A stretch of DNA of 64,000 bases from the NCBI GenBank assembly GCA_001574975.1, contig KQ965839.1, forward strand, positions 97,868-161,867. The letters run 5' to 3'. This document shows positions 32,401 through 64,000 of this stretch, piece after piece. Each line of letters starts with the position of its first letter. Position 1 is the stretch's first letter. The stretch is from Gonapodya prolifera JEL478. Taxonomy: Eukaryota; Monoblepharomycota; Monoblepharidomycetes; Monoblepharidales; Gonapodyaceae. The notes under the pieces are model-generated. The model was not told the DNA's origin. It saw only the letters and a program-made list of their open reading frames with translations, and did not search any database. The position numbers were made by a program, and so were the translations under genes.

Positions 32401-32880
32401 CTCGATGATTTACGTCAAATTCTTCACACCCATAATCATCATCAGTACCCCGTAACAGATCAAAACGGATATTTATTGGGCGTTGTTAGTGCCCGGGACT
32501 TATGGTGTGCCATTGAAGAAGCGTGGGACCACGGGCATCATGGTGGAACCGTGTGTTCGTTCTTGGAGCGGCCACCTCCTGGAGTTGGTGATCTCGCTCA
32601 CTTGGATGAACCTCAAGGAGCTGGACCTACGAGTTTCAACCTACGGAGCTGGATTGATACGACGCCCTTCTGCGTGCAGTCAGGCTTGTCGGTTCAAGTT
32701 ATTATTGAATATGTTGCGAAACTCGGACTCCGATATGTCGTTGTTGTGGACATGGGAGTCCTGAAAGGCATGATCACTAAAAAAGACTTGTTGCGGCACG
32801 TCGAGGAGTGCGAAGGGGATTCGCCCCACGAACCTCGGATGCTGGAGTCGGAGTTTGAGAGGAAGATGGCATCACTTTAA
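29435..32880 (+). CDS. CLC-family chloride/proton antiporter with CBS domains (CLC-3/4/5, Gef1 type)
   Basis: Intracellular CLC exchanger acidifying Golgi or endosome-type compartments. The cytosolic N-terminus ([14 protein letters not shown]...) precedes helices beginning [14 protein letters not shown] and [18 protein letters not shown]. Selectivity motifs are present: [23 protein letters not shown] (gating glutamate) and [17 protein letters not shown]. The segment [20 protein letters not shown] retains the proton-pathway glutamate expected for an antiporter rather than a channel. The C-terminus holds two CBS domains ([20 protein letters not shown] ... [20 protein letters not shown] and [20 protein letters not shown]). 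About twelve exons; stop TAA at 32878-32880. It is the last conserved gene before the transposon island. Confidence 0.93.
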
Positions 32881-33060
32881 CATTTAATTATATATACAGG
32901 GAAAGATTATAGTGATAGGGACCTTGCGCAACAATTTATTTTTCACTCGCAAAAATACTTTAGGCGCCTCGAGTGAAAACTTGATTATTGACCTTGCTGC
33001 ACAATTTAAAAATATCAATACACAACTCTTTCCCTGATGGACCGATCTTCCTTAGAGCTT

Positions 33061-34224
33061 GCAGGAATGGCCGTCATGAGCACGCAAAGGAGGCAGGAAC
33101 AGCAGCGGCGGCGCTCACAATTGCCGCTTCAATCATCCCACGGGAACGCCCTACTTTCCCCTCCACTTGCATGGATCTGGACGCAATGACACCTGTGGAA
33201 TGTAGGCTGAGGTTTAGGTGAGTTGCGGTGCCATTCTCTCCACGGATCGGGCATTGGATGACCTGGGCGGTGTCTGTGGTCAGGTTTGACAAAACCAACA
33301 AGCCCTCCACATACTGGCAATTGTCAGCATGGACAACAGATTGATAGTACCTGGGACTGAGGTACTCTGTATTGTGCTCCACCACCTCTCCTTCCCCACC
33401 CGCTTGGATGACATCATCAAGGAGTTTGGCTGTGAAGGCAGTGAGATTTCACAGATTTACCAGTGGGGCATTGCCCACATCTGCGCACTATTCAGTAATG
33501 TTTTGTACTGGGACAAGGATCAGCTCACATTGGAGGTTCTCTGGGAATACGCAGATGCTGTTCGGGATGCCAGCGCACCATATGTGGATTGCTTTGGATT
33601 CATGGACAGCACAGTCTGGCAGATATGCAGACCATTGCAGTATCAGCAGCAATTGCTAACAGACATCATCAAGTACTGGCACTAAAGTTTTACAGAATTA
33701 TGGCCCTGGACAGGATCATGATACATCTTGGGGGGCCATTCAACAGCCCATTTCATGACACTACTTTATGGAAACAGAGCGGGGTCAAAGATCTTCTTGT
33801 TGAACATGGTGAGTGCCGCAATTGTTGTTGTTTGCCTTCAAATTGGTGCTCTACACCCTTTGTAGCTTTTGGTCCCAATGGTGAAATTCTCTTTGTCTAC
33901 AGTGATCCTGGGTACTCAGGCAAATTCCCCCACCTCCAGTACCCCTTCAAGTCAGCTTTTCCAATGCTGGAACAGCACGCTTGCAATGTGGGAATGAGCT
34001 GGCATTGGATTTGTGTGGAGTGGGGATGGGGGAAGGCGAAAACAGAATTTGCTGCTCTGGACTGGTGGCAAATGCATAACATTTTGTTGTCTCCAATTGC
34101 TTTATATTTTTGTTGTGGTATTTTACTAACTAATGTTCTTACATGTCTGTATGGGAGTGAAACTTCGTCACACTTTTGGTGCNNCCCCCCCCCCCCCCCC
34201 TATTGGAACATTATTTATGTGTAA
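33061..34224 (+). pseudogene. PIF/Harbinger-type DDE transposase (frame-disrupted)
   Basis: RNase-H-fold DDE_4 transposase. The N-terminal part reads DAMTPVECRLRFR, then after an intron FDKT and VPGTEVLCIVLHHLSFPTRL. The first catalytic Asp is in CFGFMDSTVWQICRP, the second in VYSDPGYSGKFP, and the acidic third position in CVEWGWGKAK. The C-terminal GILLTNVLTCLYGSETS is shared with the copy near 50,600. The frame shifts near 33,660, where the text passes from QYQQQLL to HQVLALKFYRIMALDRIM. Two unresolved bases and a 16-C run at 34183-34200 lie near the end. Decayed or affected by sequence errors. Confidence 0.75.
34185..34200 (+). repeat. Homopolymer C16 next to unresolved bases
   Basis: A run of 16 C follows two N (34183-34184). 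It is probably an assembly-difficult homopolymer in the 3' part of the transposase. Confidence 0.9.
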
Positions 34225-34254
34225 ACCAATAGATTTTATAAACTTCTAGGTTAA

Positions 34255-35890
34255 TTCAACACTATTAATACTGCTTTTTTATGGTTGGAGGGGCTGGATG
34301 AGGTGGACGAGCAAATTCTGCATTGCTCAGTTGGTCTCCCCCCTTTGTTCCTGCTCCATCCTCTGTTCTTCCAACTGCACCCTCTGGAACTCCAGCTCCT
34401 CTTGTCAAAGTGCATGGTCCTGAGTCTGTTTGTCCATCATTTGGGCAAGAGTGTTGATGACGGGATCCAGCTTCTTGTTTTCCTTGTCCATGAGGTCCTT
34501 AATGCCCCTGAGCATGTCACATGCATCCTTTGCAACCGTCCGCCGCTTTTTTGCCAGTGGTGTTCTCTCCAGCTCCAACAACTCCTTGCTGTCGCCACTC
34601 CCTGTCCTTGTCCGAATGCCTATCTTGTCAGATAGGCGCTGCAGAGCGTTTTCATGAGTTGCTGGCATAGAGGAGATACAATTGGTGCTAAAACAGTTGC
34701 CAAGGCTGGAATTGCCTGTGCATTGCTTCAATAAACAGGACTCACCTGCATGTATCTGCATTTCCATTTTTTGCTTCCTCATGACTTCATTCCGCCTTGC
34801 ATCTTGCTCTGCTGTGTATCCTGTATAAAACTTGGTAGGGGGTTGCATGTGCAATTGTGGGCAGGGCGTCATTGGGGGTTTGAAATCAATTTGATTTGTG
34901 CGCAAAATTTGAAAACTCACTGCCCCCAGAATTCCTTGGCCAACTTTGCTACACAACCTAGGTGAGCTGCACAAGCCTGTAATCTGCAGGAATGTGTATA
35001 TATGATCAGATGTACATAGCAAGACGTAATGTGCATAGAACTCACCTGCAGGAATCTGATGCCAAACTTAGGGCACATCCTGCAGGTGTGCACATCTAAA
35101 CCCGCGGCCACAGCAGCTAATACCCAACACTGATACTACACTATATACTCCACGTTAGTGGATGTCAGTGAGACAAACTTGTCCAATTGAGTGTACTGCT
35201 CATTGTCTCCAGATTTCTTGAGAGCGTTGAGGTTCTTCTTGTGATACATGTCCTGTACTTGTTCCAGTTTTCAGGTGATGTTGGTGTTGAGGTTCACAAG
35301 CACGTCTGCAAGCTCCATGTAGTTCTCCACCAGCTTTTCTCCTGGGACACACCAAAAAGGCTCCATTTCAATGGTAAGTTGGAGAAGGTGGAGGACCATT
35401 GCCATTAGCCATCAGAATGGTGCCTTCCTCAGTCCACCAGCAGCTGGCTTGTCACCAATTGCCCCATATTGTTGGTTGAGCTGCATTAGGGGTGAGATGG
35501 CTGTGGGGGCGGCAAATTGAGGGGGGGAAAGGTGGTAGAGTTTGTTGCCACTTACTTGGGGTTTCTGCAGTCCAATTGGAGCCACAAGTCCACCATTCAG
35601 TGGATTCCTATAGTCCTTCCTTTGTTGCTTCTCTTCTGCAGTAAGGCAAGGCCATCCAGGGCCATGCTTTGCCTTCTTGGGTTGCCCGTGCCCCATGCTG
35701 CGTTGGGAGTTGATTTGGGGCAGGGACGCACATCCGAGAGGCGCAGCACCCAAATTGAATATCTTGTTGTCGGAATTGGCAGGGTATTGGATGGGGTGGA
35801 CCTGGGGATGAAGGGGAAAGGCGACGACAGGGAATAAATTTAAGTCACTGCCATGGGGTGATTCGGGGCTTTTGAGGCCCACAGCTGCAG
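34255..35890 (-). CDS. Harbinger accessory protein (coiled-coil), interrupted by a solo LTR
   Basis: Minus-strand open segments lie convergent to the transposase. The N-terminal part near 35,880-35,410 is Pro/Gln-rich and includes TAEEKQQRKDYRNPLNGG. The middle has TGYTAEQDARRNEVMRKQKM. The C-terminal part has SKELLELERTPLAKKRRTVA and DMLRGIKDLMDKENKKLD, a basic patch followed by a coiled coil. This fits the second, DNA-binding ORF of Harbinger elements in position and orientation, but no Myb/SANT helix was recognised. The 229-bp LTR-like insertion at 34947-35175 splits it. Exon structure was not resolved. Confidence 0.5.
34947..35175 (-). mobile_element. Solo LTR-like element, copy 1 (5-bp TSD AACTT)
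   Basis: 229 bp with TG...CA ends, flanked by a perfect AACTT duplication (34942-34946 and 35176-35180). Read on the minus strand it has a TATATA-like box, several CCTGCAGG palindromes and a GCAGGTGAGT splice-donor-like sequence. Two other copies are at 36302-36534 and 62746-62984. The 5-bp TSD and TG/CA termini indicate integrase-mediated insertion, as for a solo LTR or a TRIM. No internal retrotransposon genes were found in the window. Confidence 0.8.
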
Positions 35891-36087
35891 CCAGGAACTC
35901 ACATGATGTCTGTGATGTTGTCCATTGATGGACATTGGTCTAGTAGCAAGGGGGCAGTGAAGAATTAATTTTCATTCAAGGGGGTTTCTAGTGTGATTTT
36001 CACTCATGGATTTTCACTACAAAATATCCTTTGGCATTAAGTAGCCAAATGAAAATGTGTGAGTGAAAATTATTGCACAAGGTCCCT

Positions 36088-36104: not shown

Positions 36105-36301
36105 GTTATTTTTTGGTTTTTGAAGAGGGCAGAAGTTCTTCACTGCTGAGCATTACAGCAACCCCTGCTAACACTGCAAGACCACACAAGAGCCACCACA
36201 TCAAATCATAGGATCACATCATATTGTATTCCAAGCCACCCAAGTACGACCCAAGGAACTCCAGTATCGGGTGCCCTACCAGTGAAATAACAGACAGGGT
36301 T

Positions 36302-36534
36302 TGTCACACTGACATCCACTAATGTGGAATATATAGAGTAGTATGAGTTTTGGGTATTAGCTGCTGTGCCACTACTGTGGCCGCGGGTTTAGATGTGCAC
36401 ACCTGCAGGACATGCCCTAAGTTTGGCATCACGTTCCTGCAGGTGAGTTCAAAGCACATTACAACTTGTTATGTATATTTGATTACACATACACGTTCCT
36501 GCAGGCTTGTGCAGCTCACCTAGGTTGTGTAGCA
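36302..36534 (+). mobile_element. Solo LTR-like element, copy 2
   Basis: 233 bp homologous to copy 1 but in the opposite orientation (TGTCACACTGAC ... GTTGTGTAGCA). It has TG...CA termini. The flanks (GGGTT and TTATG) do not form a target duplication, so it may have recombined or its flanks have decayed. Confidence 0.75.
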
Positions 36535-47890: not shown

Positions 47891-48086
47891 AATATTTCGA
47901 AGGACATTCAATGTTGGCTTTATCGTATCAACCCATTCTTGCATGTTCGCAACTTAATACTGTGCCAGTTGCATAAAACGTGGTCCACATTAAATATTTG
48001 CACAGGCAACAAAGAAAAAGATAGTCTCAAGAAGTGAAAGAGCAACGACCGGGTTGTATTCGCATTGACTCGAAAGGATCAAAAGA

Positions 48087-48160
48087 CGAGCCGTGCAAGG
48101 ATTGAACCTGCGACCCCCCTGATTCGTTGTCGGGCGGTCTATCCACTGATCTAATGACCC
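48087..48160 (-). pseudogene. Decayed tRNA-Arg(ACG) copy
   Basis: Tandem duplicate of the tRNA at 48178-48250, 17 bp downstream of it. It keeps the 5' half (GGGTCATTAGATCAGTGG) and an ACG anticodon. It has a mismatch in the acceptor stem, a mispair in the anticodon stem, an added G in the variable region and one base lost from the T loop (GGTTCAATCC). Probably non-functional. Confidence 0.8.
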
Positions 48161-48177
48161 ACTGATCTAGCAAAATG

Positions 48178-48250
48178 CGAGTCATGCAGGATTCGAACCT
48201 GCGACCCCCTGATTCGTAGTCAGATGATCTATCCACTGATCTAATGACCC
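48178..48250 (-). tRNA. tRNA-Arg, anticodon ACG
   Basis: 73-nt cloverleaf on the minus strand: acceptor GGGTCAT with ATGACTC, anticodon stem TCTGA/TCAGG, loop CTACGAA (anticodon ACG, reads CGN after A-to-I) and an intact T arm (GCAGGTTCGAATCCTGC). No intron. Flanked by a decayed tandem copy. Confidence 0.93.
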
Positions 48251-49550
48251 CCGGAACATTGGAAATTAAACCAACATTGTGTATATATTATTTTAAAAAT
48301 TAAACGGTTGGAAGGTGTCTGTCCACCTTGGAACCCCTCACTCCTCACCCCAATATCTTCGCTGATGAAAACCTTATTGGACAAGTAGCTACGATACATA
48401 ACTACAACAAAAAAATAAATTGGTCTGTGCTAGGCTGATGCCTGGCTCATGTACAGCAGACAGCAGCAATTCCTCTTTGAGTGCTGCCAATCTTCTGAAT
48501 AGCTGATGCAATGATGACATACACAAAGAATTATTTGATGGTGAGCAGCTGGGCATGGGCAAAATTGCTCCCAGCCTCTGAAGGAGAATTGACCAAGCAG
48601 AGCTGTGCCGGCAATTTCATTTTATTCTTTTGTCACCAACGGCAGTCATAGTACCGTCAATGCAAATGCTGCCATCAGTGATTAGGACATTGTAGGATTG
48701 AATTTCAAATTAAAACCCCTGTCAGATAGGTGAAAACCATTGTATGTCCTGTTTACATGGTCATTTTCTTGCTTAAGATGGTTGCATTGAGCACTTGGAA
48801 CTATGTGAGTCTTGAAAGACAAAAGTTTTACATATCTTGGCTTGTCAGGTGGAGTGGGTGCATCACTTGCCTGTGGGAGTGAGGCATGCAAATGTTGGGC
48901 AAGACACAAGTGCAAAAGGGAGAGCCAAGAAAACAGAGAGGTTACATGGTGACTGGGGAGACAAGTGAGTTGAGATGGGAGAAGTAAGAGATGACATATA
49001 CAAGGTAACTTACACAAATTATGTGATGTATCTCAGGAAAATCTATAAATAGAGATGCTAGGACTTGTGCAGGGAGGTGTTTCCCAGAAAGTATGGGCAA
49101 AGCAGCACAAAAGTTTGGGTTGGAATGTAACAGATACAGGAGCTGGGATTGAACACTTGTGTAGCTGTTATAAGCTCAAGGAGAGTTGGTGAGATTCCTG
49201 ATTTTGTTCTGTACCTAAGGGTGCATTTAGGCAATTGGGGAAGAGGAACACCATAGAATTGTTCCTATTTACAATGACTGCTCCACTTTTTGATCTAGAA
49301 ACCCATTCCCAAAGCAAAATCATTTTTTTTAATGAAACTCTCATAAATCATTATGAGCTGTCACAGCTCAATCAAAATATGCACATTTACCATTAATTAC
49401 ATTTTTTATGAAAATAAAATTCAAGCCCACACCTTGCGCCAACCCAGAATGCACAATTCCGGTGGACACAAAAACATGCAAGACAATTCATTGGACTTGT
49501 CTGATTCTGATGTGGGGACTTGTGCTGTGATGCAATTAGTATGCAATCAA
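48251..49550. other. AT-rich repeat-island DNA without a supported gene
   Basis: About 1.3 kb of low-GC sequence between the tRNA and the Harbinger 2 transposase. No coding domain was recognised. A short TIR-like match (ACCTTGCGCCAAC) lies near 49,427 and is the only candidate left end for Harbinger 2; it is weak. Confidence 0.4.
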
Positions 49551-50691
49551 AGAGGAGGCGCTGGCATATGGCCCTGTTGATCCTCTTCTACCAGCTGGAG
49601 CAGATGATCCCACTGGAGAGGCCATTCCACCTGGACCCAAGGCTCAATTTGAATGCCATGTCAAACGCAGACTGCTTATTGAATTTTTGGTGAGTTCTTG
49701 TGGAATTGTTGCTTGGGCTGACAGGATTGGTGCTCAAACTTGTTGAATGCAGTTTTGAAAAGGACAACCTTCTCCATCTCCAGACAGGTCTGGAGCTCCC
49801 AGAGGTGATTGTTCTGGACAGCCGTCATAAATTTCTTGGTGCAGGGCACTCGGCAAGCTTCTGAAGCAGCTTGTATTCCCCAATTGCCTCTGGGACATTT
49901 CACAAACATTTGGTCACTCCCCTGGTGAACTATTGTGGATTGTATTGTACGTTGTTGGCAATCTGAAGGAACAATATAAGGACATATTGAAATGGGACAT
50001 GGACCAGCTGATGCTGCAGCTGCTGAAGCAGTTTTGTGAGGCGATTCATGAAGCTGGTTCGCCTCTTGTTTCTGTCTTTGGATTCATTGATGGCACAGAT
50101 CACAGGATATCACGGCCGTTGCACAATCAAAGGAAGTATTACAGTGGGCAAAAGAGGCAGCATTGCCTCAAGTATCAGGGTGTGGTGTCACTGGATGGGA
50201 TTATCATCCACCTGGCAGGACCATTTCTTGGTCCAGACCATGACCTCACCATCTTCTGAAGAAGCGGATTGAACAATCTTCTTGCACTCCATGGTTCATG
50301 CTAATTTCGTGCCCTGTTATGATGGCTTTAACATACTTTGGGTAGCATTTGGACCTCTTACCAAATCTATGGGGACCCAGCTTATCTGCCAGGCAATGGT
50401 CATTTGGCAGGTCCATGGAAGCTGGCACATCTAAGTGCTGTGCAGCAGGAGTATAATTCAAGGAACATTGCCATGCGCATGTCTATTGAATGGGCATGGG
50501 AGAAGCTGGCAACACTTTTTGTGTTCCTGAATTACTACAGGAATCTGAAGGTAGAGCTTTCTCCTGTAGGGTTGCACTATAGTATAGGCATACTGCTAAC
50601 AAACACTCATACTTGTTTGTATGGAAGTGAGACAGGGGTGCGGTTTGGACTAACCCCCCCAATGCTCAAGGAATACCTGAATTCTGAATAG
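49551..50691 (+). pseudogene. PIF/Harbinger-type DDE transposase 2 (decayed)
   Basis: Second, diverged Harbinger transposase. Exons give VDPLLPAGADDPTGEAIPPG, then LLKQLVFPNCLWDISQTFGH and VFGFIDGTDHRISRPLHNQ (first Asp). Next is DGIIIHLAGPFLGPDHDLTI, where an in-frame TGA at 50258-50260 interrupts before RSGLNNLLALHG. It continues with IYGDPAYLPGNGHLAGPWK (second Asp) and MSIEWAWEKLATLFVFLNYY (third acidic residue), ending GSETGVRFGLTPPMLKEYLN. Clearly related to the transposase near 33,600 and more decayed. The 5' start was not identified. Confidence 0.75.
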
Positions 50692-51431
50692 ATATTTCTT
50701 TACAAAATTTGTTTCTTAATTTCCATTAACTCTTTTAACGTGGTCATCATCACATCCCTCATATTGTTGGCTTCCAACACCCACACCGCTAACTCCCGCT
50801 CCTTCAACTCCAGCGCCTTATGCTTCCTGTCCTCCAACTCTTGTGCAACCTCAAGCTAGCCTTCAGCTTGCTTTTCCTCCACGCAAAGCATGTCAAAAAT
50901 CATTTTGAGGCTGCTACAGACTTCCTCCACAGGCTTCCCCCACTTCCTTGCCACATTGACCTCATCCTTGCCATCTGCAGCATTCAGATCCACGTCCTCA
51001 AGCACCCTCTTCTTGGAGAGGGTTTCTGTTGCGTCCTTGCGTAAGCCTAATTAGATAGAATGAGTGAGCAACCAAATTAGCATGAACACAAAACACACTC
51101 ACAGGCAGCAATCAGCAATTCCATCTCTGCCTTGGCATGCCTGTTCTCCTTCTCCTTGGTGTTCTCCATTTCAAACTGGCAACGCTGGAAGAAAGAGATC
51201 AGGATGAGTGAGGTACAAACACAAACTTATACCAGTACTTACATCTCTTGCATAAGACACCACAAGCACGTCCAGAGTGGTTTCTTCCTTGTCCTCTCCT
51301 GTGTGTTTCTCCCACAAGGCTCCAGTCTGCTCCCATTGCCTGACAAGGGTCCCTACCTTGTGGTCAGCATTGATTGGAGTCACACCACTATAAGCAGTGG
51401 GGTCCTTCAATTTCATTGCCTCCGTGACCTG
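50692..51431 (-). pseudogene. Harbinger 2 accessory gene, 3' part (left of the Ginger insertion)
   Basis: Minus-strand exons encode the C-terminal half of a coiled-coil protein: VTEAMKLKDPTAYSGVTPIN, WEQTGALWEKHTGEDKEETT, then RCQFEMENTKEKENRHAKAE and ALELKERELAVWVLEANNMR. It is separated from its N-terminal HMG-box half (58867-59390) by the 7.4-kb Ginger-like element, and the CCTG target duplication sits exactly at the split. An in-frame stop is also present in the last exon. Confidence 0.6.
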
Positions 51432-51479
51432 TGTCACGTTTTTTAGACCCCCCATGCAACTGAAGCCCCCCACCCCATG
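51432..51479 (+). repeat. Left TIR of the Ginger-like element
   Basis: 48 bp, preceded by target duplication CCTG. It differs from the right TIR at two positions, both of which are CpG versus TpG/CpA. Confidence 0.9.
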
Positions 51480-51564
51480 NAATGGATTATGTTTGTGCCT
51501 TACATTGATATGGCATTTATAGGTTGGCCAAGTTTGTATATTTATTATCAGAATGCTATTAAAT

Positions 51565-54500
51565 CTAGACGAGGCTTGCCCCAACTGTCCTGTTCTGCAC
51601 ATTGGGGATACAATACGCAAAGGAATACATACATGTCCTCTTTCCATCTTCTCCAAAAATTGTGAGGGTACACTGGAAGAGGTAGCTGGGCTCCCTCAAA
51701 TTTTGCTTGAACAGTGCAGAGTACTGCATCATGAAAAGCAGTGCAACACACAAGAACAAGCCACAACTGTGTCCATCACCCTGTTTCCAAAATAGAGACC
51801 AGACCTGGTTTCTTGGAGATGGTGCCAATTCCAAGAATAGTAGTTCTTGCAACCCCTTCTGACATGCCTCCAAATCTGTGTCATAATGATGTGGGTGATC
51901 ACTCCAATCCAGTGCATCTGCAACCAGTGCGTTTCCATTCCTGTCCATCACAATCACATACCAGTGGAAGTTCTGCTCATTGACCATGAAAAGGTGATAA
52001 TCTTGATCTCCGTGTGCAAATTATCAATGAATTTTCGACTCAGTTGGGACTGGTGCTCAAGTGTCATATAGCCCAGGTTTTGAAGTGTGTACACCACTTG
52101 GGAGGAGAAGTAGGAAATGGATGGCAGCCTTTCTTGTAGATTCCACAAGGTGATGACTGGCAAGAGGAAAAGGTTGAGTACAATATTGCTCCAGTTCTGT
52201 GTTCCAGAGAGATATGATGCTTCAAAAAGAGCAGACCCTGTAGGGAACACAGCCCTGCAGATGAATAACATGTAAGATGATTTCATCCACAGTCATGAGA
52301 GGGCAGGGTGGTTTCTTACCTAATGTANGCATCCTCATAGGCCACCCTGTCCTGCGCAGAAATGGTAAGAAGGGTGGTGGGCATAAGTCTGTTGANGTCT
52401 ATACGTGAATGGGACGTCACTGGCAAGGGAGGTGCTACAGGGAGAAATGGATGTGACCTAAACTCTTGCTTGGGTTCTGTGGAATGCTTGGGGTCCAAGA
52501 CAGCTGAATTGGTTGCTCTCAACAAAGTGGATATTGAGTCATCAGTGTAGAGTGCAAGGTCTGGGATGCGCTTGTCAATGTCTTCCAAAGGAAAATTGAA
52601 GTTTGATCTGATAAAAGAAAATTCAAATGACTTTTAGATAACTATTGGGAAGTGGGGAGATTGGCAAGCACATACATTGGCTCCCATGTGGATGCTGATG
52701 GGGGCCATCCAGTCCACAAGACCAGATACTCTCTTGTATTCCCGTTCTCTCTGAATCCCAAGATTGCCTGTACTTCAAAGTCTTTGTCTTGTCCAGGTGG
52801 AGATCCGACCACCTTTTGGATCTCCTCATTGGAGATGGCTGGAGGGATTGCCCTGAGATTACGTTGATGGAACCACCATTGTGCAACTGTCCCAAGCAGA
52901 TCCTGCAGATTAGGGCCTTGGTGTATCCAGCATAACTGGTAGAGGTACTGGACTTGGTTGACCTTGACTATGGAAGCGGCATGGGCCCACATAGGGCCAG
53001 GACGTTTGCCCTTGCCTCGAAATACTTTGCGGACTAGCACCCTGTCACCAATGCTGAGGTGCTGGGGTAGCTTGTCCATCCTGGTCAATAATCTACATGA
53101 CACAGTTTAGAGATACGTGGCATCATGAATGAAGAGAAACTCACCTGGATATGGCCTTGGCACTGGCAGCAGCCATGTTTTTGTGAGCAGTCTTTATGAG
53201 TTCTTGGTGCTCTGCTTCCAAGAGAGTAGCATCCACTAGATGATCACGCAAACTGGCTGGAGCAAGGAAGCATGCATCTGTCCTGCCATAGAATAGGACA
53301 TCCAGGATGCACTTGGTGGTGGAGTGTCGTTCATGGTTGTAAGTGCTGATCACTGACTGGAGTACATTGTTGCAGTCCTCAAAAGTGCAGTGGAGGGGGT
53401 CAATATCTTTAGAGCGCATGCCTTGCCACCACCTGGGCTTCACGGTTCTGTGGATCCTCTCAATGGCACCCTGATTCTGTGGATGGTATAGACGACCATG
53501 AACTGGGCGAACTCTGAAGTGCGCATGGGTGGCAGTGACAAGATTTGATTTGAATTCAGTTCCATTGTCACTCAACATCCTACATCAATATCATGAGTTG
53601 GGTACCATACCAATCCACAGATAACTCTTACCTTTCAGGTGTTCCATCTGTTGTATATATGTTCTCCAAAAACTCCACAACATTTTTTCTGCAGTGTGTT
53701 GGTGGTACAGTTTACCCCAAATTTTTTTGCTGAAGTGGTCTACGCAGGCCAGAAGATTGAGATTGTTGAGCTTGGTGAAATTGAAGACAAAGAGTTCACA
53801 TGGTCTAGTGGCTATGATAGGGAGGAGGGGGACTGGGTTTGGGGCGGCATGGGTCATAGTGCATTGTGGGCACCACTTGATGAGGGAGCGGAAAACTGGA
53901 AATAGAGTTGAGAGATAGAAATTCTGGCTGCACCTGTCCCAAGTTCAGTTGATGCCAGGATGGGTTCCGAACTCAGACGACATATGGTTGTGCTGGTAAA
54001 GATCAAGAAACTGCTGGAATGGTTAGAATCTCGCAAAAGTGAAACCATCCATACCAGACTCACCTCGTCAAGAGAACTCAACACCACAAGACCATGCTTC
54101 TTTTTGTAGCTGTACACCAGGCGGGAATCCATGCACCAGTACTTTGTGCACTGTATGACAGTGGATTTAGGGCAGTATAACAATGACATATTCATTGGTT
54201 CCCACCATGGTTTTGAAATTTTTGCGTTGAGAAAGGTTTCCTTTGCCCAATAGTCAATCAAGAAATTTATGACTCCGCAGGTACTGTGCAATTTCTGCAT
54301 GTTTGACATAGTAAGCTCAGAGGATATAGTACTCTTCTTTGCTAAGCCTGGGATAGGAGGGGGGAGGAGTCGCAGTAACTCCAAAGGTTGCTGTTGTCTC
54401 TTCACCAAAAACTGTGTAGGAGCCATGAGCCTGCGCATGGTATGCGCCGTTCACTGAGTCTAGAATCTGACGCACTAGGGAATTGTAGATAACTGTTGGG

Positions 54501-54601
54501 GGCGCCACTCCAAGACGCATACAGAGTACATCCTCATCCACGGAGGTGAGACTTGTCTCATAGGAAACTGCGGGATCATACACACTGATGAAGCAAGGCA
54601 T
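51565..54601 (-). pseudogene. DD35E integrase with H2C2, GPY/F-like and chromodomain, spliced to a Ulp1-like protease
   Basis: Transposase polyprotein read on the minus strand. Order: N-terminal region from ATG 54601; H2C2 zinc knuckle (HNHMSSEFGTHPGIN ... WCPQC); integrase core with catalytic Asp in LLACVDHFSKKIWG, Asp in MLSDNGTEFKSNL and Glu in QNQGAIERIHRT, the last two exactly 35 residues apart; GPY/F-like fold (KGKRPGPMWAHAASI); chromodomain (REYLVLWTGWPPSASTWEP). A donor after STWEP and an acceptor near 52,607 link in phase to SNFNFPLEDIDKRIPDLAL, then a C48 protease-like domain with catalytic His (NFHWYVIVMD), Gln and Cys (WKQGDGHSCG). Damage: frameshift and stops near 54,250-54,320, a TGA in the H2C2 region near 53,947, and a one-base loss in a T run near 51,990. 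Two N occur at 52327 and 52396. Confidence 0.82.
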
Positions 54602-54673
54602 TGTGATGGAGGTGGGAAAAGAAAGTGTTTGGAGATAGTTGGAATATGGGATTGTCAGAAACCGGGTTTGTCA

Positions 54674-54951
54674 TGCAGAAAAAGGTCTCCCACCGAATTG
54701 GTAGCAGCCCATTTTCTGCGCAACCAACAACAACTGAAAATCACGCCTTTCAAGCCTGGCAGAAAAGGCTGGGTGACTGATTCGGTAGCAAATGATTTTT
54801 TGCATGTCCAATGTTGGTTGTGCAGAAATTGGGTTGCTACCGATTCAGTAGCAGCCCATTTTCTGCATGAACCACAGTGTAGTGAAATTATGGAATGCAA
54901 GTCATGCAGAAAATGTGTTGCTACCAAATCAGTAGGGGACAGTTTTGAGCA
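54674..54951. repeat. Four imperfect hairpins in the bidirectional promoter of the Ginger-like element
   Basis: Four related inverted repeats, at about 54674-54719, 54759-54806, 54821-54867 and 54905-54951. Each has the form TGCAGAAAATGGGTTGCTACC, a short spacer with GAATC, then the inverse ending TTTTCTGCA. The third is best, with arms of about 21 bp. They lie between the divergent start codons (54601 minus, 55073 plus). Candidate binding sites for a transposon protein or regulatory RNA hairpins. Confidence 0.8.
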
Positions 54952-55072
54952 TGTTCCAACTCACTTGCGTGCGGGTGCGCATCCCGACCTGTGTCACAAT
55001 GTGCCTGGAATTAGGACACCAAAATCTCTTTCCAACACAGTCAGGTCAATCTGATTCTGTTACTCTCTCATC

Positions 55073-58000
55073 ATGTCTTCCAGCTCAATCACCTCAATCA
55101 TTGCCAAGTGGCATCTTCAGGGTACATTCACAATTCCCATGAATCAGATTGACCTGAAGGCCTTCACCCCAATTCAGGAACGTTACAAGCCAGGTGTTCT
55201 GGAGATCATGTAAGTCAGATTTGGTTTTGTAGGTTGGCAGTTCTGACTTCCTACCATCCCAAGGACTGCTTTCAAAGGTCAAGCTTGGGTTTCTAGACAC
55301 CAGCATGGTCATTCTCTTCTGCATAGGGGAAGACCGTTATGGTATTGTCAATGGCAACCACAGACTTGTTGCACTTTACTGCTTGAAGGATGAGGACAAG
55401 GATTACGAAACACTCCCCAGACTCCTAGATGGGACGCTGACGGTCAACGCAATTATCTTGTGGGTGAGTTCATTTTTTGGTCTTCCTAGTCTCTGCTCAC
55501 ATTTCTCCCCCCACTTTTATGGTTATAGGATGATACGCCTGAATACGTTAGGTCCCATATCGGATCAATGGTGAACTTCACAGGCAAAACCAGTAAATAA
55601 AGCTTGAACTCTATTGAACGTCTTCTGACTTTCAATCTCTTGTAGGAGTACCCATGAACCCCTTCAATACCTTTATGGCCGTTCACCGCTCTCTCACGTA
55701 CGGCACCACCAACAGGACTCAGAGGCAGGTGCGGAACGTGGTCAAGGACTTCGAAGGTACAAGTCATGTCAAGCAGATTGGGAACTGGATCACAGTTGCC
55801 AAGTCGTACACTGCAGTCCCCAATGTGAGTCTTTGCCTACCCATGTTTTCCATTACCTCTCTGAGACAGTGTAGTTTGAGGCAATTCTTTGTGAAGATGC
55901 CATCAGCAACATGCCCAACTTCTGTCTGCCCATCACCACCCTTTATGCTGAGGGTGGTGTCAAGAAGTATCTTGTGGACAAGGATCCAGAACTTGCTGTA
56001 AGTATTCTTTTTTTAATTTATAATATCTATGGGCGCTAATGATTTATTAGGAGCACTTCTTTTGCATGCTTGTTGCTCTCCCTGCTCCACCAAAGCTCAA
56101 GGAGGTCCAGGACATGGCACAACTCTGGGGTGAGAAATACTCACCATGGATCAAGGGATACTTGCAGCTGTCTGACAATGACAGATGGACCAATGAGAAA
56201 AAACATGTGGCGCAGGTTCTCATACTGAGTGCTGAGTGTTGACTGCATTTGACTCTGTGATTGCCTGAATGTCCAACCTTCACACATTTCAAGGCACATT
56301 CAAGGACACATCCACCTGTGCCCACGTTCTGGAGGAGTGCAAGGAGCGCCTTGGGACTGTAAGCAAGAAGGGGAAGGAGAAAGGTGAGAGTATTTTGTAT
56401 GTTGTTTGCACCATGTGAATGACTTTGACAAAAGCAGCCCCCTCCGAAGAGGTCCCTGCACTGACTACCCCTGTTCCAAGGATCACAACACAAGCGGGGG
56501 AACCCAGTGGAGCAGTGGGCCCAGTGAGATTTGGTTTCCTTCTGCTTGACGTTGATATGTGCCACAAACGTTTCTTTAATGGAGATCGATGTTCCCAACA
56601 AGCAACCACCTGAGGAACTGCTACCTACTCCTTGAGCAAAAGAGGGCCTGCCCACCACTCCCTGATCCAAGGTGAGTCCCCTTAAATCATATTAGGTTCT
56701 TGTCTCTCACTCTACATTTCGTGCCAAGCCATCGAAATCTTGACCCACAGGCCGCCCCCTGAAGCACAAGTTTGCCAGTCCCACCATTACCCTCATCAAC
56801 GTGCAAAAACTTGAGGACACCCTGAACAAGTTCAGCGCAGATAAAGGACAGACTGCAAACCTTATTGTGCTGGACTTCCCTTCTCTGGATCAAGCAGACC
56901 ATGGTAACCCAGTAAGTGCACTCTGTTGCTGTGCAATCATGACACTGACTTTGCTTTTAGAAACTTGCCCCTAAATTCCAGTCGCGCCTTTGGGGACTTC
57001 AAGACATTGCCCTGAACAAGGTGCTACATCCAGACGGAATTCTCATGGAAGTAAGTTCTTTGTATTGTGTACATTCTTTTGCTCTAACCTATTTTTTCAG
57101 TGCATCAATCTTTCCCAGTACAGCTCCGTGTGCAGGGACTACACCAACTTTGGGGCTTCCTCAATCTCCACCATCCACGTCACATTCCACGCCAACGTCA
57201 GCTGGACAAAGAAGGTTCTCAATGACAAAGCAACAATTTTTGGGGCAAAAAACGTTGTTGCCCACTACATTGTTGCATCAAGATCTGCGCATGCAGTCAA
57301 CTGGTCCATTGGCACCAACTGGCGTCGTACGTGGTCCACAACCAACTTTTTTGGTCCATACATAGTGCCGGAGCAGGATGTGGTGGTGAGTTTTTGGGTG
57401 TACGTGTTCCTAGGTTTACACCAGCCTATTAACTTCTTAAACCTTTCTGCTTTTGTCAACAAACACAAGACCTATAAAGCTCAGCAAGAAGGCAGGAAGG
57501 CCATCAAGAATGTTCCATTCTTCTCTGGACAAGTACCAAGCGCCCTGTGGATGGAGGTCCTGACGCTTCTCACCAACCCTGGCAACCACGTGGTGATTCC
57601 AAGTGTGGGGACTGGAAGTTTGGCCACAGCTTGTGCACTTCTTGGTAGGGAGTGCACAGGGTGGGTCTTTGATGATCATTTCCATTCTCGCCTCAATAGC
57701 CACCACATGGAGCTTGAAGCTCAGACAAACAAAGATGCAAGGAAAGTTTTTGAAAGGTAAGTCTCTGTCTTTATCAGTGCCTCATCCCACTTGCAAAGCT
57801 AACCTACTGATGTTTTCAAGACTCATCTTGGACAGGGACTTCTTCCACTACACCACTGCATCATTCAGTGCGGAAGTGGCTGCCACCCCAGCCAGCAAGG
57901 TCCAATTGTTGGCAGAGAATGTGGATGATGAGGATGACAAAGAGTTAATTAAGGTGCCCCCTGAAGGTAAGTTGAAAATTGAACGTCTTTGCAGCAACTT

Positions 58001-58748
58001 CTGCTAACCTCCTGTAGACCCTTCACAGTACCCATCAACTGCACCAGACAGTAAGTGCAGTGTATGTTGTCCTTGTCCATGCACTAACTCTATTTTTGAC
58101 ATTTCCCCTGACCCAACCAGGACCATCCTCTTCAAATGTTCTGTGGAACTCTCAAGGTGTCCCACTTGGTAAGTTGTTTGCCCAACAATGTAACTCTGTA
58201 TGATTCTAATTCTGTGAACTATTTCAGTTGCCCAATTCATATCTGACCAAGCTGCCGTTGCATCAAGAGATGAGGACAATGAAGGTGAGGACAGTAAGTG
58301 CACCCCAATGTTCTTGTCTGTGTTACCTCTAACATGTCTAACCAACAGCAGATTCATATAGTGGGCAGTCTCTATCTAAGTACTCAGACTGCAAAGACCC
58401 ACGTACTCCACCCCCCGAGGACACCACTGAGTCCAAGCCTGAGGTAGAAGGTGAGTTGTACTACACTGTGTATGTATCTGCTCTTGTACTAACACAGTTG
58501 CACAGGCAGACCACCCTCAAATTCTTGGAAGAGGCCACTGCCAAGCCCCTGAATCTCAAGAGTGTAAGTTCCCATGTATGTACAATTTGTTTCTATGCCA
58601 TTCATATTGTCCCTTTTCAGATCCTCCTGCAAAAAGGACCTGTCAATCAGCACCCACTCAACCTGTACAAGAGCAGAGGGAAAGGGGGGGCAGGAGGGGA
58701 GGGGGGGTTGAGAGGGGCAAGAGGGGCCGTCGTGCATCTCTGAAGTGA
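55073..58748 (+). CDS. ParB-like domain fused to beta-class DNA N4/N6-methyltransferase, transposon-borne
   Basis: Multi-exon gene (about fifteen exons) from ATG 55073 (MSSSSITSIIAKWHLQG). Exons 1-2 form a ParB-like domain: IDLKAFTPIQERYKP, then GEDRYGIVNGNHRLVALY, the GNHR box of ParB/Srx folds. The middle contains QVRNVVKDFEGTSHVKQIG and a linker. The C-terminal half has beta-class methyltransferase order: TANLIVLDFPSLDQADHG (motif IV, normally DPPY), LNKVLHPDGILMECIN, VVAHYIVASRSA, then MEVLTLLTNPGNHVVIPSVG and TGSLATACALLGRECTGW (motif I, normally DPFxGSGTT). Asp of motif IV and the GTG of motif I remain, but both motifs are altered, so activity is uncertain. A basic RGGRRGGG-type tail ends at TGA 58746-58748. 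No frame break was noticed, unlike the integrase. Confidence 0.75.
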
Positions 58749-58818
58749 TAGCATTTGTATTATGCTTAGTACATAATAAACTGTTACAACTCCAATTATC
58801 TACATGGGGGTACTGATT

Positions 58819-58866
58819 CATGGGGTGGGGGGCTTCAGTTGCGTGGGGGGTCTAAAAAATGTGACA
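58819..58866 (-). repeat. Right TIR of the Ginger-like element
   Basis: 48-bp inverted copy of 51432-51479, followed by target duplication CCTG (58867-58870). Confidence 0.9.
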
Positions 58867-59390
58867 CCTGCATCCACTTTGCCTGCATTGTTTTGCTTTT
58901 TCTGAGGATCTTGTAGGGTCAAGTGACAGCTGCATGGTGCATTAGCACCATGCAGGCAGCATAGTCCCATGTAAAGTAGACTCCAGGTGCCTCCTGCATG
59001 TTGGAAGCCTTTTCTGCCACAGGCTGTCACCCTTGCCCATGTGGTGCAAGATGGGCAAGGAGTAGGCGCAAGCCAGGAGGCTTTGGCAAGTGCAGCAGAT
59101 TGGTCAACATACACCTGCCACATATACAAATGCTCACAGAGTTTCTACATGTACAGGGTAATAAGAAATGACTCACTCACCTTTTTTTCATCATTGGAAA
59201 GTGCTTTCCACATGTTTCCAATTGTCACCAGGACCATAGCAAAGTCCAGGTCAGGATATGCCTTCTTCACCTCTGGGGGCTTCTCCCTTGAAAAATGCAT
59301 GAATGGCGCAGGCACAGGCATTGGCAGTACCACAGTTGACGTTGTTGAGCCTTTTGGTGGGCGTCCGCAGCGCTTTGGGCAGCTTCCCAT
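58867..59390 (-). pseudogene. HMG-box accessory gene of Harbinger 2, 5' part (right of the Ginger insertion)
   Basis: Minus-strand exon beginning at ATG 59390 (MGSCPKRCGRPPKGSTTS) encodes an HMG-box: APFMHFSREKPPEVKKAYPD, then MVLVTIGNMWKALSNDEKK, with the RPPK AT-hook-like basic patch just before it. A GTGAGT donor leads to a second exon VYVDQSAALAKASWLAPTPC ... KKQNNAGKVDAG, which is cut by the Ginger-like element. HMG-boxes bend DNA, a plausible DNA-binding partner for the transposase. Association with the Harbinger 2 element is inferred from position and the coiled-coil remainder at 50692-51431. Confidence 0.65.
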
Positions 59391-59910
59391 GATCAGTGAT
59401 GGTTTGTTGTGTTCGAAAAATGGTGGGGTGTCTGCAAGTTGTCAGCATGCCCACCAGAGCAAAAGGAATGCAAAAGCAATAAACAATTACCAATTCAGCT
59501 GATTTGACATCAAAATCCGGGTTCTTATGGACTCACCAGTCAAATCATTGTCCAAACTGTCCCCGGTCCTGTCCATCCTGATTTCTTCCATGCCGCAAGC
59601 CCTTTTAGCAGTAGTAGCAACATCAATGTAATTGATGAAGTTTCAGCAAGAAAGAAAGGTCCAATAGGTACCAGCCAGCCCAGTTGGACACCCCAGCTGG
59701 CAGGAGACCAACGACAGTCAGCCCCAAGAAACTGGACCAATGATAATTGCCAACGTTGCCTCACCTGACGAATCTCTAAAAATTGCAATTTTCCAATGCC
59801 GTTTCCAAGAGGAAATCAATGATTGTGTGGGCTCACATATTGGCTCATGGATTTGTGAGCCTGCACGATTTATTCTCACTGCCAAATTTCTTGTGTGCTA
59901 CATATTTGTT

Positions 59911-59935
59911 AAAATAAAATGTTGCGCAACCTCTC
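59911..59935 (-). repeat. Probable right TIR of Harbinger 2
   Basis: AAAATAAAATGTTGCGCAAC followed by CTCTC and TA mirrors the Harbinger 1 end (TTGCGCAACAATTTATTTTT read outward-in). The matching left end was not found. Confidence 0.55.
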
Positions 59936-60278
59936 TATTCAGAAAATAAAAGCAAACAATAGTTTCAATATGAGGTATCATGATTATAGTAAGACTGTAG
60001 AGTTGGTTTCCAAGTCATTAGTTTGATGGACTCAACCATGTTTAGAGATATTTGATTAAATTGGACAGAATTGTATGGTATTTACTTGAGCACTGGGTTG
60101 TTCCTGGTGCAGATACATCATACCCCAACTTTGTGATGTTGAAAGTGATCTTTGGAGATGATATGAGAGTCAAAAACATTTCATTTTATGTTAAAGTGTT
60201 TGATTTTAGCTTTCTGCACGTGGCACAGTGGGAGTGGTGTGATAGTAGCATTTTTGGGTGGTAAACAACTATATATTA

Positions 60279-60489
60279 GGGACCATGTGCAAAATATCAT
60301 TCGGCACTTTTCACTGATGTCAAACAATTTGCCAAGACGCAGGGTGAGAAATTTGGGAATGAGAATAAATTCAAATATGTTTTAATTAATAGTTTAGAGT
60401 ATACTTGATGAAGCGGCTGCTTTAATGGAGGAGAATAACTATTTTTTACATGAGTGAAAATTGCTGACGGAAATTCTGCGCAAGGTCTC
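60279..60489. mobile_element. MITE of the GGGACC TIR family
   Basis: 211 bp with inverted ends GGGACCATGTGCAAAAT ... TTTTCACT and AGTGAAAA ... TGCGCAAGGTCTC, flanked by TA. There is no coding capacity. The ends match Harbinger 1, so it is probably mobilised by that transposase. Confidence 0.75.
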
Positions 60490-61102
60490 TATTATCAAAA
60501 TATACACTTCCCTGAGTGATTTCTTAAGACTGCAATATCAATTCAAATACACAATCATGTTCTAGAAATAAAACATTTTAATTGATATCAGCAGCTCTTT
60601 ACATCTTCTGTGAAACTTCAAACACTGTGGTTTAGTTAAGCTTCTTCAACAACTGTACATTATTTTGATTCACAAACCTTGTATTAATGAAGTAAAAAAC
60701 TTTGTTGACTCTATTTGCTTTCCTTACATTATGCTGCAGATCATTAACTGTTATTCCACCTCAGTTACAAACAAGGAATTGCCATTAATTACAGTTACAA
60801 TTGGGACCTACTGAAAAGCAACACATATTTCTTCACTTCATAAATAATTACTTTGTGGTAGGCCTGAACTGGAGTAACAGTATATGTAGGGGGATATCTA
60901 TAGTATTGTGGTCTACATATAACAATTCCAACTTCTCCTCTCATTACCTAACCTCTGCCCTATCCTCTTGAGTACAGATACTCCATAACTTTGCAGTAGG
61001 TATGGAGGAGAACACATGTCACAAACAGGGAGTTTTAAAGGGAATTTCAGTGGCAAATGACTGACTAAACAAAAAATAGTCTTTCATCTTCACCAAGAGT
61101 TA

Positions 61103-61123
61103 GGGGGGGGGGGGGGGGGGGGG
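61103..61123 (+). repeat. G21 homopolymer
   Basis: Uninterrupted run of 21 G in AT-rich DNA. Potential quadruplex former and likely length-variable or mis-sized. Confidence 0.95.
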
Positions 61124-62095
61124 CAAGTTTCACTAAAAATCTCATTATGTGATATTCACTGTATTCAGGTGGTATACTTTGGTTCATGTGATCTAGATGG
61201 ATTATTACAGAAGATTGAAACTAATTTCACAAACTATGCCATTACATTAGAAACTCCTCTACCAAAAGTGCTCTTATTAATATGTTTTGACATGGAATAT
61301 TTCATATAGTTGCATCTAACACTGTACAAAGCATTTTCTGGCATCTTTGCTTCTTGTTGGATGGGTAATCACCTATGCATAAGACTATGGTTTTTGTTGA
61401 CCTCATAAAGATCTCTAGAAATACCTATTTTAATAAACAAGAGACTGCACAACAGCACAACAAGCAATAATAAACATTTATTGCAATATCTAATTCTTTG
61501 TTTGTTTTCAACTGAAAATGCAAGGCATTATAGGGCTAATTAAATATGTAAGAGCATGTGCTATTCAGACTAATAAAGTCTGAAACGTACTCCATTGGTA
61601 CCACAAGTCCCAACTGTCATAGGATGGTTGCAGGCAAATTTAGGGTGTTGTTGCCAATTCCATGCTTGTTTGGGAACCATTTACCTTTCTGGTCAGATGC
61701 ATACAATATGCAAAATGAGCCAATACTTTTTTCCTTGACTAACTGAGCTTGTGCCACATAATTGAAGAGTTTTCACTTTTTATAACATCAATGACACTCT
61801 TAGTGTTGCACATTTATCTGAGTAACACTAATCTGAAATGCACAGGTTTGAGCCACCTACACAATATCACTAAATTGTATGAGAATGTGATTTTATATGC
61901 AGAAGCATCAGACTGTATATATAAGAAGAGGGTTTTCTACTGAAGCACCTAGAGGGGAACAAAAAAAATATGACATACAAAGTAAACACAAAAAAGATAT
62001 TTGAATAGGGGTAGAAGTTATGGATGGTAACTGAAATTTGTGGGAAAAAATTTGTTTATATTATTTTGGCTATGTGGAAGTGTAATTGATGCACC

Positions 62096-62728
62096 TTGTT
62101 TTATGCAAGCAAATGGTTTTGTTATCATTACGCATCAGTCTCAAAATTCTGGAACTTTATCACCACAACATCCATGGAGTACTCAAAGCCAGACAAAATT
62201 GTGTGCACACATGGTGTGATCCTCTGGGATTATGTAGAGGAACACATGCTGTGGGATGAGTCCAAGGTTATGATCAGGTGTTGTATCAGGATCTACCCAG
62301 CCATGGGTTCCAATAGAATGGACTACAGTACTTACAATATATCACACACATCATTCTATCACAAAACCTTATCTGTTTTTTCATTTCAAGAGACCACAAA
62401 AAAGTTCAAGGTGAGTTTTTTGTATTGCTTTTGCTTCTCTGTTTTATTGATTAATTATGTTGCACTACAGCTTTTTTTGGGTGTCTTGCTTAGATCACAT
62501 AATTTCACTCAGGCAAGTCACTTTGTTGGTATGTATAAATATACTATAAGCTCATTGCAGGGTACTAAACAATATGTGTATGTTTTCAAACAGACTGCAA
62601 GCCAAGAATTTCATGTTGATTTGGATTCCATGTTAAATCACAAAATTATCCATAGGTCCTTACTAAATCACACAAGTTTAACCATTCTTCATTCCTGTGG
62701 AGGCACTGCTCTGACAAGCCATTTTTGA
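62096..62728 (+). other. Open frame of about 210 codons, doubtful gene fragment
   Basis: Contains PDKIVCTHGVILWDYVEEHM and SKVMIRCCIRIYPAMGSNRM, then a GTGAGT donor after FQETTKKFK near 62,411. Low GC and many Phe/Tyr/Ser codons. No homology was recognised; possibly an exon of a decayed transposon gene. Confidence 0.25.
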
Positions 62729-62745
62729 TGTAAACAATGGAGGAT

Positions 62746-62984
62746 TGCTACACAACCTAGGTGAGCTGCACAAGCCTGTAAACTGCAGGAACGTGTATAT
62801 ATGATCAGATGTACATAGCAAGACGTGATGTGCATAGAACTCACCTGCAGGAACGTGATGCCAAACTTANNGCACGTCCTGCAGGTGTGCACATATAAAC
62901 CCGCGGCCACAGTAGTGGCACAGCAGCTAATACCCAACACTCATACTACACTATATACTCCACGTTAGTGGATGTCAGTGTGAC
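62746..62984 (-). mobile_element. Solo LTR-like element, copy 3
   Basis: 239 bp in the same orientation as copy 1 (starts TGCTACACAACCTAGGTGAG, ends GGATGTCAGTGTGACA). It contains two unresolved bases near 62,870. The flanks AGGAT and CCAGA do not match, so no target duplication is visible. Confidence 0.75.
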
Positions 62985-63030
62985 ACCAGATGGGTTTTGA
63001 CTTTGAAAGATTTGTTTCAAATCATTCCCT

Positions 63031-64000
63031 TGTCACGTTTTTTACACCCCCCACCCTGGAGAGTGCCCCCACCCTGTAAATTGCTCCACCCACCCCAAGA
63101 TCCATAATATTGAAGATGAGCGTTTTGTCTGAAAAGTATGTTAATTTCTTCAAAGAACAATGCCATTATATGTCCCTGAATCTTATGAAGACCCAGCGCT
63201 CCAACCCTTTCTGGGCTCCACCCCACTTGAACTCCCCCTTCCCCCACTACTCCCACGTGAGATCCCTCTTGCACTACCTCCCCCCCTCCCACTTGTAGAT
63301 CCACAACCACACCAGTTTGCCCTGTGTGTTGGTGTATGGTGTGGACGCTTTGGGTTAGGTTCTAGTAAAATAAAGGCAGTAATAAGAGACCATGCAGTGA
63401 GCATAGAAGTGAGAGGGTGTAGAAACCTGGGTTGGTCTCGTCTGTGCACCAATGGGGGGCTCGCCTGGCTGCGGGGGCGGGAGGTCTGGCAGGGCACATT
63501 GGGGATTTGGGCTTTGGAGCGTCTTCATAAAATGAAACAAATTCAAATAAGAACAGCCATGTCAAAGTAAACTAATGAACTTACTGTTGTATTTGCTCTC
63601 GTCCTCATCATCCTTGCTGTCACTCTCGTCATCATCCCCACCCTTGGCTGCACCTTGGTCACTGTCATCTTGGTTGCTGCCTTCTTCATCCCCAGGAAGG
63701 CAGTATCGTTTGATGAGTTGTTGGATGTTTCGTTCCATTGGTTGATGATTGAAATCAAGGCACGTTTTGAGTATTTAACAGAGGCAGAATCAGGACCTAA
63801 GAATCCGCCGCTCCATAACGGAGCAAGCCAGATCTGACTGTAGTAGGGTTACTACGGGAGTTAGTCGTTAGGGTAAGATTAGTTTTGAGTATGGAATAGC
63901 TCTGTTGTTCGTCTAGTACATGTGCTATATATTGACCGGTTCCGAGGGCTACTGTGGTCACGACGCCTACCGGCGCCCACAACGCCAATCCCTTCGGACC
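63031..64000. mobile_element. Left end of a second Ginger-like element (right end not in window)
   Basis: Begins TGTCACGTTTTTTACACCCC, which matches the first 20 bases of the 51432 element except one. It then diverges into another C-rich inverted-repeat-like stretch (to about 63,100). No matching right end was found before 64,000. Inside are short Pro-rich open frames (63160-63570 plus) with no recognised domain. From about 63,780 the sequence is GC-richer and may belong to a different unit. Confidence 0.5.

Follow-up and report, generated by a model that had tools for sequence, protein, structure and literature searches.

A Ginger-like transposon of Gonapodya prolifera with a ParB- and methyltransferase-like accessory gene, a possible reader of the array between its genes

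A 64-kb stretch of the Gonapodya prolifera JEL478 genome (contig KQ965839.1, positions 97,868 to 161,867; hereafter the window, numbered from its first letter) contains a 7,435-bp cut-and-paste element at 51432-58866, in which a transposase gene and a second, accessory gene diverge from a shared region carrying four related 45-bp units, two of them strong palindromes. The explanation that is tentatively preferred is that of a Ginger-like transposon whose accessory gene derives from a ParB-methyltransferase and acts as a reader binding this array. The gene's ancestor would be a ParB-methyltransferase fusion of bacterial or phage type, and its protein would bind the element's own DNA, most likely at the four-unit array, by means of its ParB-like half together with the base-reading face of a worn methyltransferase fold. 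Catalysis would have been lost, and in place of depositing N6-methyladenine (6mA) or N4-methylcytosine (4mC) the protein may read specific sequence and thereby protect the activity of the shared promoter region from cytosine methylation by the host, or it may regulate both genes. The coordinates of all features are collected in Table 1.

As to whether the second half of the accessory protein is a METHYLTRANSFERASE, its best match was a DNA methyltransferase in Pfam (N6_N4_Mtase, E 0.0063, under the cut-off), in PHROGs (PHROG 3008, E 0.0026) and in NCBIfam (CcrM, E 0.0021, far under the cut-off), and all five matches among solved structures were methyltransferases (E 0.054-0.9). Profile similarity to methyltransferases, whose absence the original prediction for this DNA had counted as refuting it, was found: on a 20-row profile of its own type, eight rows of which were fetched by matches of the tested protein itself, the half scored 30.7 bits (shuffle maximum 8.5) and none of 2,000 shuffles did as well. 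Profiles of 28 and 12 rows, with no row fetched directly by the tested protein's matches, gave 9.8 and 9.2 bits (0/2,000 shuffles each, with a close shuffle maximum of 7.9 bits for both). The independence of these two profiles is only partial, because their rows descend from the phage-type fusion L101, and the phage contigs that led to L101 were found with L005, a match of the tested protein. A 37-row fusion profile scored 31.5 with hhalign (shuffle maximum 21.3, 0/120) and 8.4 bits with hmmsearch (maximum 6.2, 0/2,000). On the ParB profile, used as a negative control, 797/2,000 shuffles (hmmsearch) and 83/120 (hhalign) were as good as the real half. Translated searches (tblastn) returned 102 phage records, of which the best 20 (top E 0.02) lay under methylase or, once, partitioning-protein features in 14 cases and under capsid genes in six; among plasmids, 15 records were found (best E 0.3), nine of them under methyltransferase genes. 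In viral contigs no relatives of this half, of the ParB-like half or of the integrase exon were confirmed.

The second half thus reads as a beta-class DNA-methyltransferase-like sequence with motif IV (placed by eye) before motif I. Motifs I, II and IV, which carry here their usual names and roles in DNA methyltransferases, are all altered: DPPY is replaced by DFPS in motif IV, the Asp of motif I by Ile and the Glu of motif II by Val. The DFPS change, already remarked upon in the original prediction, contrasts with 37 phage-type relatives, every one of which has a DPPY-type motif (DPPY in 34, with single cases of DPPF, DPPW and SPPY). All 37 also have the Asp of motif I and the Glu of motif II, as counted with a pattern that does not force Glu or Gln at motif II, and 24/24 other rows of alignment A2 carry Asp and Glu at these positions.

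The N-terminal half is probably ParB-like. Against a 20-row ParB profile (12 fusion N-termini and eight plasmid ParBs) it scored 10.1 bits with hmmsearch (shuffle maximum 4.8, 0/2,000) and 28.2 with hhalign (maximum 22.2, 0/100), the match being centred on GNHRLVALY (55353-55379). The corresponding negative control, the 20-row methyltransferase profile, was matched as well by 1,295/2,000 and 72/100 shuffles. Each half therefore beats all shuffles on the profile of its own type and not on that of the other, which argues for the preferred explanation. With the fusion profile the first 165 residues scored 19.8 and the best shuffle 19.7 (0/100), a margin too thin to be used, and only two phage records were matched by this half (E 7 and 10).

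The gene was assembled by hand on the plus strand from 13 exons with GT...AG borders and a phase that is consistent within each half, the host being a eukaryote with short GT-AG introns. The two halves follow each other in the order originally claimed, ParB-like and then methyltransferase-like. Their GC contents at the three codon positions are alike (0.52/0.40/0.60 and 0.53/0.40/0.57), and the 11 modelled introns are short (49-94 nt) and GC-poor (0.39 versus 0.50); this three-position composition and these introns support a real coding sequence. The openness of the exons is modest evidence, since for three of them 73, 50 and 452 of 2,000 shuffles were open in some frame. The donor at 56216 (GTTCTC) is weak.

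The four 45-bp units between the divergent genes (U1 to U4) are centred at 54697, 54781, 54844 and 54928. The spacings of 84, 63 and 84 bp are multiples of 21, and the units would therefore share one face of the helix at its repeat of 10.5 bp per turn. U3 and U1 are the best and second-best 45-bp palindromes of the window, the maxima in 10 shuffled windows being 14-16 paired positions. Half-sites with at most five mismatches occur in six of the eight array positions and nowhere outside the array in the 64-kb window, where three other places have six mismatches. The centres of the units resemble CCGAWTCGG, and GANTC, the CcrM site, occurs in U2 and U3, as was noticed post hoc; the two units lacking it differ from CCGAWTCGG in ways that CpG deamination would give. 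The array is a candidate recognition site. It is also quite possible that the units are sites of the transposase or of a host factor, or the remains of a small hairpin insertion, and have nothing to do with the ParB-like protein, a reading that is compatible with the other parts of the preferred explanation. Placed between the two promoters, the units would be open to use by either protein; however, an array of several sites accounts for four related units at multiples of 21 bp better than a single insertion does, and the rest of the element holds no half-site with five mismatches or fewer.

Several observations weigh against a ParB-methyltransferase-derived, array-binding reader. The ParB-like half is short and weak: on the whole-fusion profile it is not significant (324/2,000 and 10/100 shuffles as good), and it matches no ParB family in Pfam, PHROGs or NCBIfam. 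The similarity asserted at the outset therefore holds on the ParB profile and fails on the fusion profile and in the libraries. Its top matches among solved structures are two designed ankyrin proteins (E 6.8e-07 and 0.0037), which were read as chance and summed repeats because the best single stretches reach only E 3.7 and 0.17. The predicted structures have a mean predicted local distance difference test (pLDDT) score of 33.2 for the sequence alone and 48.5 with 24 phage-type rows, an alignment that is poor outside motif I; the models suggested as a check were thus obtained and do not confirm a methyltransferase fold. As palindromes, U2 and U4 do not exceed chance, only six of the eight half-sites have at most five mismatches, and the 28 GANTC sites of the element show no enrichment (28.7 expected). 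Only one copy is present in the window, so the altered motifs could be decay, and the transposase of this same copy looks decayed. Finally, both the binding of the array and the reader function are proposals from sequence.

The ends of the element are well defined. Its termini read TGTCAC...GTGACA, the inverted repeats pair 51431-51479 with 58819-58867 (49 nt, 96% identity), and CCTG flanks both ends as a 4-bp target duplication in the one insertion seen, all of which bears out the transposon with inverted repeats that had been proposed. The core of the terminal inverted repeat (TIR) occurs at two places only in the 64 kb (at most three mismatches; expected 0.00), and no second copy of the element was found in the window by blastn. 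In viral contigs the 16-base core was found in 14 stretches, none matching either protein half, with 18-27 of 48 TIR positions alike, the 16 core positions included.

The transposase gene carries a nonsense codon in its zinc finger (53942-53962), a change of reading frame around 53675-53695 in the DDE core, and Asn at the position of the first catalytic Asp (53777-53791), with DNG and E present, all as judged by eye. Because of this stop codon, frame change and substitution, the present copy is probably unable to move itself. At the tail, a His/Asp/Cys pattern was seen by eye beside the sub-cut-off PF02902 match. No GPY/F motif, as named in the available part of PMC2836005, was seen by eye in the transposase, where the stretch that would correspond to it in its usual context reads MWAHAASIV. 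According to the same part of that source, Ginger1 elements have TIRs of about 40-270 bp, a TGTNR end, a CCGG or CCGT duplication and often a Ulp1 tail. The present element resembles Ginger1, as described there, in TIR length, in its TGTNR end (TGTCA) and in the 4-bp length of its duplication; it shares with Ginger1 and Ginger2 a Gypsy-like integrase with an H2C2 finger and, by a match just under the cut-off, a DDE core, and may share with many Ginger1 elements a Ulp1-like tail, here a weak match under the cut-off. Unlike Ginger1 in that account, it has CCTG, and unlike both groups it carries a chromodomain and a second gene. Because CCTG differs from CCGG/CCGT and no GPY/F is visible, the element was not filed under Ginger1; it is, as read here, Ginger-like and related to Gypsy integrases. 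Of the earlier label "Ginger-type", the integrase-type transposase (H2C2, DDE) stands and strict Ginger1 membership does not.

The observed/expected ratio of CpG is 0.28 in the element, with an excess of TpG and CpA. It is 0.25-0.31 in the four 4-kb blocks of 48-64 kb, against 0.91-1.06 in 10 of the 16 blocks (1-32 and 40-48 kb), the other two having 0.48 and 0.78. Such a loss of CpG with TpG/CpA excess is what cytosine methylation of repeats would be expected to leave behind, and it counts in favour of the preferred explanation.

An alternative reading takes the second gene as decaying cargo, in which the ParB-methyltransferase once worked, the copy is now a fossil and the motif changes are drift. 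It would account for the nonsense codon and frameshift of the transposase, for the loss of CpG throughout the element and for the junction at 56524-56750, which is stopped in all frames. However, the second-gene exons retain a strong three-position bias, the DFPS and Ile changes are not simple CpG deaminations (codons read by eye) and the inverted repeats are still closely alike, so that this reading is considered rather unlikely. An active DNA methyltransferase (of adenine or cytosine N4) that acts on its own element, mimicking an active mark or blocking silencing, is judged unlikely. The domain order matches that of phage-type fusions with intact motifs, and algal ParB-methyltransferases have been proposed to bind and modify their own transposon sequence (PMC12477816, available part). 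Against it stand the altered motifs (DFPS in motif IV, Ile in motif I and Val in motif II), as well as the lack of enrichment of GANTC, the sole site tested. It is because these three motifs are altered together that active methylation was downgraded, and a DNA reader whose catalysis is weak or lost seems likelier than an active methylase. Among the roles first suggested, the fallback of a domain that has lost catalysis has become likelier, and active methylation less likely now that motifs I and II are also seen to be altered. Two separate adjacent genes, as the stops in all three frames between the halves might suggest, are very doubtful, for the halves are fused in phage-type relatives, lie on one strand only 227 bp apart and would be joined in phase by the weak-donor intron.

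The original prediction held the arrangement to be undescribed. This does not stand: in Ectocarpus, the 21.5-kb element Sola1-1_Ec32 carries a gene for a ParB-like and 4mC/6mA methyltransferase protein opposite its transposase (PMC12477816, available part), and the same source cites ParB-methyltransferases of green and red algal transposons (Iyer 2011; Petroll 2025). As these Sola1 and algal cases are already described in that part of the paper, the present element is a variant of a known pairing. Like Sola1-1_Ec32 as presented there, it is a DNA transposon in which a ParB-methyltransferase-like gene lies opposite the transposase; it differs in having an integrase-type transposase in 7.4 kb, where the other has a Sola1 transposase in a brown alga. 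The altered motifs are a feature of the present element, the comparison with Sola1-1_Ec32 being by the description in PMC12477816 (available part) and not by motifs. The likeness to the green and red algal cases, the same kind of protein in transposons, is known through their citation in that part of PMC12477816. In the literature on ParB, transposons and methylation the Ectocarpus paper alone was on point, in a search that left most subscription papers outside, so a fungal or Ginger case is possible there.

The gene also resembles the phage-type fusions (L101, L183-L189 and relatives) in having a ParB-like part at the N-terminus and, at the C-terminus, a beta-class methyltransferase in which motif IV precedes motif I, a domain order read by eye in eight rows; L101 itself scores 25.8 bits against ParB_N, just short of the cut-off of 26.3. 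In contrast to these fusions, whose catalytic motifs are intact (37/37), it has altered motifs, eukaryotic introns and a transposon setting. Nicking by a bacterial ParB-methylase is cited in the available part of PMC5512222. Fungal DNA transposons have adopted TET/JBP dioxygenases, proposed to counter silencing (Kojima 2025, PMC12730594, available part), and there too an accessory gene related to DNA modification is borne by a transposon; the enzyme is, however, unrelated, and the available part of PMC12730594 mentions neither ParB nor Ginger nor integrase. What is new here is the integrase-type element, the altered methyltransferase motifs and the four-unit array between the genes.

The surroundings of the element are rich in repeats. 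Strong CpG loss, against about 1.0 in the gene-rich blocks, marks 48001-64000 and 32001-36000 as repeat islands. Harbinger-like transposase frames (by eye) flank the element at 49.6-50.7 kb on the plus strand, the frame at 50332-50688 having no Pfam match, and an HMG-box frame (E 3.9e-09; 59145-59441, minus strand) lies on its other side; with such frames to either side, the element may lie inside another transposon. A second Harbinger-like transposase frame is found at 33499-34221 (DDE_Tnp_4, E 0.015, under the cut-off). A repeat of about 200 bp at 34946-35175, 36299-36504 and 62745-62985 (two direct copies and one inverted, 88-97% alike) possibly represents the ends of a shared transposon family. 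Two adjacent, mutually similar tRNA-Arg (ACG) predictions occupy 48085-48250 on the minus strand, of which only 48178-48250 meets the Rfam threshold.

Table 1. Coordinates in the window of the features of the element
Feature	Position	Strand	Remarks
Target site duplication CCTG, left copy	51428..51431		
Left terminal inverted repeat	51432..51479	+	begins TGTCAC
Transposase gene, approximate span from presumed start codon	51565..54601	-	damaged in present copy (by eye)
Ulp1/C48-like protease region (HWYVIVMD, QGDGHSCG)	51565..52020	-	PF02902 E 0.17 and 0.089, sub-cut-off
Open frame with chromodomain	52642..53106	-	PF00385 E 3.1e-10
DDE integrase core, second half (SDNGTEF, GAIERI)	53141..53584	-	PF13683 (rve_3) E 1.4e-05, just under cut-off
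H2C2 integrase zinc finger	53852..53998	-	PF17921 E 9.1e-07, above cut-off, stop entered as X
Unit U1, palindromic	54675..54719		17/22 positions paired, second-best 45-bp palindrome in window
Unit U2, weak palindrome	54759..54803		13/22 paired, resembles other units
Unit U3, palindromic	54822..54866		19/22 paired, best 45-bp palindrome in window
Unit U4, right half degenerate	54906..54950		11/22 paired, resembles other units
ParB-like half of second gene, 8 exons	55073..56523	+	
Junction, weak-donor intron or premature TGA	56524..56750	+	stops in all three frames
Methyltransferase-like half, 5 exons modelled	56751..57966	+	profile matches
Methyltransferase-half motifs	DFPS 56873-56884; VLHPDG 57021-57038; NPGNHVVIPSVGTGS 57575-57619	+	
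Possible C-terminal tail	57967..58748	+	open frames only
Right terminal inverted repeat	58819..58866	-	
Target site duplication CCTG, right copy	58867..58870		

In its most specific form, improbable as it stands, the proposal would be that a ParB-methyltransferase turned into a catalytically dead reader whose target is a parS-like array of in-phase units within the element's divergent promoter. If this were true, the element would have a centromere-like or anti-silencing complex of its own. The element as such would take the known range of ParB-methyltransferase genes in transposons beyond the algal cases, to a transposon of integrase type, and would suggest that the same prokaryotic tool has been taken up repeatedly by unrelated transposons. 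With the altered motifs and the array, the role of ParB-methyltransferases becomes a direct binding question, that of reader or writer.

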